Position numbers and translations under genes: made by a program. From Psychrilyobacter piezotolerans (lineage in GTDB: Bacteria; Fusobacteriota; Fusobacteriia; Fusobacteriales; Fusobacteriaceae), in the NCBI RefSeq assembly GCF_003391055.1, contig NZ_QUAJ01000012.1, forward strand, positions 1-64,000: DNA of 64,000 bases, read 5' to 3'. Each line of letters begins with the position of its first letter. Within the stretch, counting starts at the first letter, position 1. Shown here piece by piece: positions 26,935 through 27,753 of this stretch. A model generated the notes under the pieces. It was not told the origin of the DNA. It saw nothing but the letters and a program-made list of their open reading frames with translations, and searched no databases.

Positions 26935-26963
26935 TTGACATTTAGCCGATTAAATCGTATTAT
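26935..26963 (+). promoter_or_regulatory. Promoter of the ArsR-rhodanese operon
   Basis: TTGACA (26935-26940), 17 bp, TATTAT (26958-26963). Confidence 0.85.
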
Positions 26964-26978
26964 TTGAATATACAAATA
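26961..26978. promoter_or_regulatory. Probable ArsR operator
   Basis: TATTTG-AATATA-CAAATA is a perfect dyad that overlaps the -10 box and start point of the ArsR promoter, where ArsR-family repressors usually bind. Confidence 0.6.
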
Positions 26979-27004: not shown

Positions 27005-27295
27005 TTGTTATATTACAAAGATGATCCAGAATTATTTGAAAATAAAGCTAGCGTCTTAAAAGCTCTATCTCATCCTATAAGATTATGCATAGTAAAAAAT
27101 TTAATTGCAGTCAAAAAAGCCAATGTAACTCAAATGCAACATTGTCTTGAGGCACCACAATCTACAATATCGCAGCACTTATCTAAATTAAAGGCTGAAA
27201 AAATTATCAAAGGTGAGAGAAAAGGCTTGGAAGTTTATTATTCCATCTCCAATGAAAGGATAATAAAAATCATCGAAGTTCTTTTTCGTAAATAA
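27005..27295 (+). CDS. ArsR-family transcriptional repressor
   Basis: 96-residue winged-helix repressor. It starts at a TTG with GGGGG six bases ahead. No ATG fits. KALSHPIRLCIVKNL is the usual first helix pair, and PQSTISQHLSKLKAEKIIKG is the recognition helix and turn. The second cysteine lies in MQHCLEAPQ just before the recognition helix, and the first in RLCIV. Such a pair may sense thiol, persulfide or metal state. The classical arsenic ELCVCDL motif is absent. Its downstream partner is a rhodanese-like gene 27 bp away, so a sulfur- or redox-sensing role is likely. Autoregulation is suggested by the operator on its promoter. Confidence 0.82.
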   Translation: MLYYKDDPELFENKASVLKALSHPIRLCIVKNLIAVKKANVTQMQHCLEAPQSTISQHLSKLKAEKIIKGERKGLEVYYSISNERIIKIIEVLFRK

Positions 27296-27322
27296 AAACT
27301 ATAGATAAAGGGAGTGTAAGTC

Positions 27323-27718
27323 ATGAATATTATAGAAAAAATTAAAACTGGTAATTGACCTATGTTAAAAATCTTAGGTTTAAGATTCGGAAAAAAAGGT
27401 AAAACATTCGACATCTCAAAAGACGAAGCTTTGAAATTATTAGAAAGTGACAACACTCTAGTCTTAGATGTCAGAACTCCAAAGGAGATAATCGCCGTTC
27501 CTTCTTTAGTTGAAGATGCTATCATGATAGATTATGAAGGTAAAAACTTTGAAAATGAAATAAAAAAATTGGATAAAAATAAAACTTATGTAGTTGTATG
27601 TACCCGTGGAAATTACGCTAGGGGTGCTTGCATAACTATGGAAAAAAACGGATTTAAATCTATGAAAAGTCTTAAGGGTGGCCTAAATTCTTTTAATAGC
27701 TGCTCTACATGAGGATAG
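27323..27718 (+). CDS. Rhodanese-like protein, candidate selenoprotein with two UGA codons
   Basis: Sulfurtransferase-fold protein. The core from the ATG at 27362 to the UGA at 27710 (116 residues) has LVLDVRTPKE and the active loop VVVCTRGNYARGA. The ribosome site (GGGAG, 27310-27314) precedes a different ATG at 27323. From there the frame is the same: MNIIEKIKTGN, UGA (27356-27358), Pro, then the core. The ATG at 27362 has no ribosome site. The core ends CST-UGA-Gly-UAG, which read as Sec is a CxxU redox motif. Each UGA has a stem-loop whose GGU starts exactly 18 nt later. I read this as a 131-residue protein with Sec12 and Sec130. The cautious alternative is a plain rhodanese, 27362-27712, behind an 11-codon leader. 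It follows arsR. Confidence 0.7.
27370..27387 (+). promoter_or_regulatory. SECIS-like stem-loop after the first UGA
   Basis: AATCTTA-GGTT-TAAGATT, a 7-bp stem with a GGUU loop. The loop starts 18 nt after UGA 27356-27358, inside the 16-37 nt window of bacterial SECIS elements, with G in its first two positions. Confidence 0.5.
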
Positions 27719-27724
27719 AAATCA

Positions 27725-27739
27725 TCTTCTGGTAGGAGA
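27725..27739 (+). promoter_or_regulatory. SECIS-like stem-loop after the second UGA
   Basis: TCTTCT-GGT-AGGAGA, a 6-bp stem with one G-T pair. GGU starts 18 nt after UGA 27710-27712, the same distance as for the first UGA. Confidence 0.45.
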
Positions 27740-27753
27740 CCTATGCGTTTAGT

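Follow-up and report, generated by a model that had tools for sequence, protein, structure and literature searches.

A short gene in a 64,000-nucleotide stretch of DNA from Psychrilyobacter piezotolerans, referred to here as the window, is likely to encode a 131-residue rhodanese selenoprotein with two selenocysteine (Sec) residues. We assign a probability of roughly 0.75 to this explanation as a whole, including its mechanism, of which the chemistry and the inducer are inferred. Sec decoding at both UGA codons, taken by itself, is very likely; it rests on sequence evidence, and there is no selenium labelling for either claim. That evidence comprises the conserved pair of UGAs, covariation in the SECIS candidates, protein-level constraint across the first UGA, and Sec machinery in the genome, all of which are shown.

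The probable double-selenocysteine gene and its transcription unit

The frame opened by the ATG at 27323 meets one UGA at 27356 and another at 27710, and closes at the TAG at 27716-27718 when the sequence is read through. The features, in window coordinates, are as follows.

26935-26963, plus strand: sigma-70-like promoter TTGACA-17-TATTAT of the arsR-selenoprotein unit (11/12 consensus; -35 kept in congeners)
26961-26978, no strand assigned: candidate ArsR operator, inverted repeat TATTTG-AATATA-CAAATA over the -10 (sequence only, no binding data)
27005-27295, plus strand: ArsR/SmtB-family regulator, 96 residues, TTG start (NF033788, 78.3 bits against a cut-off of 55; PF01022 above cut-off)
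27310-27314, plus strand: ribosome site GGGAG, read from the sequence and kept in congeners
27323-27718, plus strand: double-Sec rhodanese gene, 131 residues plus TAG in the read-through frame (UGAs kept in the relatives G006, G007 and G011)
27356-27358, plus strand: UGA codon of Sec12, in the N-terminal GNUP motif
27370-27387, plus strand: SECIS candidate 1, AATCTTA-GGTT-TAAGATT, 7 bp, GGU in loop
27419-27700, plus strand: rhodanese domain, residues 33-126 (PF00581, 44.3 bits against a cut-off of 22.2; AlphaFold core pLDDT above 90)
27599-27601, plus strand: codon of catalytic Cys93 (VVVCTRGN), from alignment; UGA in a Propionigenium maris paralog (C3)
27701-27715, plus strand: C-terminal tail Cys127-Ser-Thr-Sec130-Gly131, with UGA 27710-27712 as residue 130
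27725-27739, plus strand: SECIS candidate 2, TCTTCT-GGT-AGGAGA, 6 bp, past the stop codon, GGU in loop
27753-27799, plus strand: strong intrinsic terminator 3' of SECIS 2, kept in congeners

In the homologue alignment, Cys93 falls on the near-invariant catalytic Cys. An AlphaFold model based on 30 sequences shows a confident rhodanese core (88 residues with pLDDT above 90) and models residues 9-26 and 127-130 with low confidence, predicting that Sec12 and Sec130 are probably located on flexible arms flanking the domain. Gly131 is the last residue before the TAG.

The promoter, arsR, the selenoprotein gene and the terminator constitute a two-gene transcription unit that is conserved in the two congeners G006 and G007. 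The candidate operator is unchanged in G007 and differs by one change in G006. The ArsR neighbour scores below the cut-offs of the specific sensor models BigR and PagR. Its co-transcription with the selenoprotein gene suggests reactive sulfur, thiol stress or a metalloid as the inducer, which is an inference. The same holds for the sulfur or selenium handling under ArsR control that the initial annotation had proposed; the adjacency of arsR is kept in both congeners.

Probable selenocysteine decoding at both UGA codons

The window's genome (G000; 3.36 Mb, 99.8% complete) contains a selB gene scoring above its cut-off inside a selD-selA-selB cluster, together with a tRNA-Sec bearing the anticodon UCA; the selD and selA of this cluster are what we take them to be from their sequences. 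The initial annotation had named the absence of selA, selB and selC as grounds for refutation, and all of these, as well as selD, are present. SelB exceeds the cut-off in 46/61 genomes, and its presence is therefore not discriminating within the family. As a separate observation, selD (L053:2043, G000:C5) is a Sec gene in its own right, carrying the motif SGGGUTSKIG; its hairpin has GGGU, with GGU 18 nt past the UGA, and serves as an in-genome positive control. After the cluster come genes identified by eye as YedF-like and DUF3343-like.

Both UGAs are present in the two congeners (92-93%) and in the C5 gene of G011 (51% identity), which we take to be Propionigenium maris DSM 9537, a member of the same family as the window's genus. 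All four genes have ..KIK[TS]GNUP[ML]LK.. near the N-terminus and C[SN]TUG at the end. Over residues 1-26, comparison of the window with P. maris gives a pS of 1.0, at which synonymous sites are saturated, against a pN of 0.19, indicating that the codons on either side of UGA12 are read as protein. P. maris has CTG where the window has the Met14 codon (ATG 27362), and the mini-genes described below likewise encode Leu there, so that initiation at 27362 is not conserved. Among the homologues retrieved, no Cys replaces Sec at position 12 or 130, a substitution that had been proposed as a check, and the usual Sec/Cys test is consequently inapplicable at position 12. Cys and Sec do interchange at the catalytic site, as seen in the P. 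maris C3 paralog. Both tails are absent from the homologues retrieved outside the two genera, to which the N-terminal module is limited.

The distance from UGA to GGU is exactly 18 nt at both sites. SECIS 2 lies between the TAG and the terminator, and is thus transcribed yet free of coding constraint. A rule requiring GGU in a loop of 3-7 nt, 14-24 nt after the UGA, with a stem score of at least 5.5, was passed by 12 of the 2161 UGA triplets on both strands of the window, UGA 27356 and UGA 27710 included. The pass rate is 18/20 for family UGA sites against 10/2159 (0.46%) for other UGAs of the window; the 20 sites include close orthologs and are not independent. The C-terminal hairpin of P. 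maris C5 carries GAU instead of GGU in its loop, and the catalytic UGA of the C3 paralog has only a weak hairpin.

Across 13 distinct hairpins, including that of selD, 95.6% of cells pair and 36 cells are doubly changed in a compensatory manner. None of 500 shuffles matched the pairing or the double-change figure, and sliding the partner abolishes pairing. These hairpins were registered by hand with N padding, and a second control free of registration was run because hand registration is biased towards structure. When TGY-N6-TGA-GGN-TAR was searched in three genomes and 30 loci were inspected, the family genes scored 5.5-8 (5/5), whereas the other CxxU-G-stop loci all scored 3 or less with no hairpin (25/25). 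The script for this control accepted GAU as well as GGU, which admitted the P. maris C5 tail. Single-sequence minimum free energies are unexceptional (z of -0.84 and -0.24 for the two sites), so it is the comparative evidence that carries the case. Chance hairpins, which the initial annotation regarded as the main rival, can be rejected on the pass rates, the covariation and the 0/25 chance matches with a hairpin, but not by single-sequence folding.

A second rival takes both UGAs as ordinary stops, with a leader peptide MNIIEKIKTGN-stop, a plain rhodanese running from ATG 27362 to CST-stop, and hairpins that are due to chance or to other regulation. It is supported by the 116-residue open reading frame that the standard reading yields from 27362 and by the unremarkable single-sequence folding. 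Against it stand the lack of a ribosome site at 27362, the replacement of Met by Leu in P. maris and the mini-genes, the protein-level conservation on either side of UGA12, the conservation of CxxUG with covarying hairpins, and the Sec machinery; we consider it very unlikely. Its specific form, a leader peptide followed by reinitiation at ATG 27362, is rejected because Met14 is not conserved.

Collectively, the coordinates, frame, two UGAs, 18-nt GGU spacing and 7-bp and 6-bp stems given in the initial annotation all held in the sequence, as did its statement that the ATG of the core has no ribosome site; that ATG is itself a Leu codon in divergent copies. Its claim that both UGAs are decoded as Sec is supported by the conserved UGAs, the covarying hairpins and the Sec machinery. 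A set of homologues that all start at 27362, with no conserved Cys or Sec upstream and none after CST, would have counted against it and is not what is found, since both UGAs are kept in three other genomes.

Family variants and a 51-residue mini-gene

P. maris has two further copies, C3 and C17, besides C5. In the C3 paralog (L050:1487-1852, minus strand), which is without the N-terminal module, UGA occupies the position of the catalytic Cys (VVUTGG), and CSDUG forms the tail; C17 has Sec in the tail only (CNAUG). Apart from these, a second rhodanese selenoprotein was observed in the window's genome (L003:1474-1845, minus strand, G000:C1). It ends in DDGCGTU-stop with an AAGTCTA-GGT-TAGACTT hairpin, is kept in five genomes (also L155-L158), and is followed by a DAACS-type symporter gene. 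The catalytic-Sec paralog and this second CxxU-tailed rhodanese are compatible with a thiol/selenol redox role, for which the chemistry is inferred.

The window's genome also has a mini-gene (L004:1501-1656; G000:C3:30329-30484) of 51 residues with two Sec and no rhodanese domain. Its product, MSVLEKIKSGNUPLLKVLRLRLFKKGGKKDITKKNNLKGSTNSSKDCDTUG, corresponds to both ends of the rhodanese selenoprotein (GNUP ... CDTUG). An ortholog with both UGAs is present in G003 (73%), and a decayed remnant in G006. Comparison of the G000 and G003 copies gives a dS of 0.74 against a dN of 0.13 (dN/dS of about 0.17), a sign that purifying selection has acted on the mini-gene. It is dispensable, as the G003 copy starts with ATA and the G006 copy is a remnant. 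Clear matches to the mini-protein in 389 genomes were confined to its own genus and P. maris, a tblastn search against plasmids returned nothing useful, and no NCBIfam model matched at E up to 1.

A Crp/Fnr-type regulator gene, or what is left of one, precedes each of the two mini-genes and P. maris C5, and in three genomes a palindrome lies between this regulator and the selenoprotein gene.

L004 about 1434-1450; also L052 and L055: palindrome TGTGACAAAGTCACA (TGTGACATAGTTACA in P. maris)

The Crp/Fnr-type regulator next to the G000 mini-gene has an internal deletion. For the mini-gene, deletion is the simpler origin because its junction brings together the conserved N- and C-terminal ends of the full-length product; there is no tree, and the reverse direction is possible. 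A trans-acting redox peptide or a selenium or metal carrier is a possible role with which the mini-gene is compatible. In a bolder reading, to which we would give equal odds either way, the Sec-bearing ends (KIKxGNUPxLK... and CxxUG-stop) would constitute a module able to act by itself in redox chemistry or selenium transfer, which is fused around the rhodanese and, following loss of the enzyme domain by deletion, also occurs as a free 51-residue double selenoprotein acting in trans under Crp/Fnr-type regulation.

Proposed mechanism and relation to known systems

In the explanation that we favour, SelB and tRNA-Sec would decode each UGA, guided by a separate GGU-loop hairpin that follows it at about 18 nt. 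Sulfane sulfur (or selenium) would be captured on Cys93 in persulfide form, and when the mobile CxxU tail resolved this persulfide, sulfide would leave and Cys127 and Sec130 would be joined in a selenenylsulfide. Sec12, carried by the opposite arm, may recycle the tail or pass electrons or selenium to a partner, as the second half of a redox relay. Resolution of the Cys93 persulfide by the tail is the mechanism preferred over others, yet we put it slightly below an even chance; it is inferred by analogy. The model for it is mammalian thioredoxin reductase, whose C-terminal GCUG tail serves its active site. The two share a flexible C-terminal tail that contains Cys and has Sec as its next-to-last residue, before a terminal Gly, a likeness in working only; the present protein lacks a flavoprotein domain, its motif is CxxU instead of CU, its host domain is a rhodanese, and no homology is claimed. 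The rhodaneses of NADH-dependent persulfide reductase and CoA-persulfide reductase, which perform persulfide chemistry, are among the nearest solved folds (3nta, 3icr and 8a56). They are fused to a flavin disulfide reductase, whereas here the Sec tail is the sole possible in-chain reductant.

Two other roles for the arms can be considered. Sec12 might mainly be a selenium-dependent expression switch, with translation stopping at codon 12 in the absence of selenium and only CxxU performing chemistry. UGA12 lies only 12 codons past the start, the cheapest place to terminate, and the P. maris C3 paralog keeps the CxxU tail without the N-terminal module; however, KIKxGNUPxLK is highly constrained, in the mini-genes too, which a pure switch would not need, and this explanation is unlikely. 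Alternatively, the arms might act as a binding or storage site for a soft element (selenium, copper, mercury or arsenic) loaded by the rhodanese domain, without resolving a persulfide. This remains possible given the ArsR/SmtB-family neighbour, the retention of the arms without the enzyme in the mini-gene, and a metal-binding double selenoprotein, MbdU, on record (PMC13188914). Against it, CxxU is a classical redox motif, and a chemistry of sulfur/selenium transfer is indicated by the paralog whose catalytic residue is itself Sec.

Five forms of rhodanese selenoprotein are catalogued in a 2026 review, bearing the motifs UxxS, UxxG, CxU, UxxG and UxxxxU (PMC13188914). These forms 1-5, including NF041203 (rhodanese_LYCAU) and TsoB (NF045694), likewise combine a rhodanese domain with Sec, and TsoB has two. 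Unlike them, the protein described here has one Sec near the N-terminus, in a GNUP segment, and the other at the C-terminus, in a CxxUG tail that lies outside the fold. Membership in NF041203, the nearest NCBIfam Sec model, is rejected (40.6 bits against a cut-off of 115). The arrangement matches none of the five forms nor any curated selenoprotein model, and we regard it as a new rhodanese selenoprotein subfamily; the 51-residue mini-gene, the P. maris paralog with a catalytic UGA and the second rhodanese ending in CGTU are also new. Nothing was found on selenoproteins of Psychrilyobacter or Propionigenium in the literature searched. MbdU and selenobacteriocin also have two Sec per protein (PMC13188914), and the initial annotation was broadly right to call a pair of UGAs rare in a short bacterial protein; two-Sec families exist, only some of them in that review. 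Selenobacteriocins are short peptides comparable with the mini-gene product, which differs from both in being visibly the two ends of a rhodanese selenoprotein.

The standard reading shortens the rhodanese to 116 residues, and the mini-gene would go unseen entirely. Within one small clade, Sec sites occur as CxxU, as CxxUG and as a catalytic Cys-to-Sec swap. With two SECIS elements on one short mRNA and UGAs about 45 codons apart, the mini-gene offers a compact test case for double Sec insertion in bacteria, and as a derivative without the enzyme it poses the question of what the Sec tails do alone, which is testable with a peptide.
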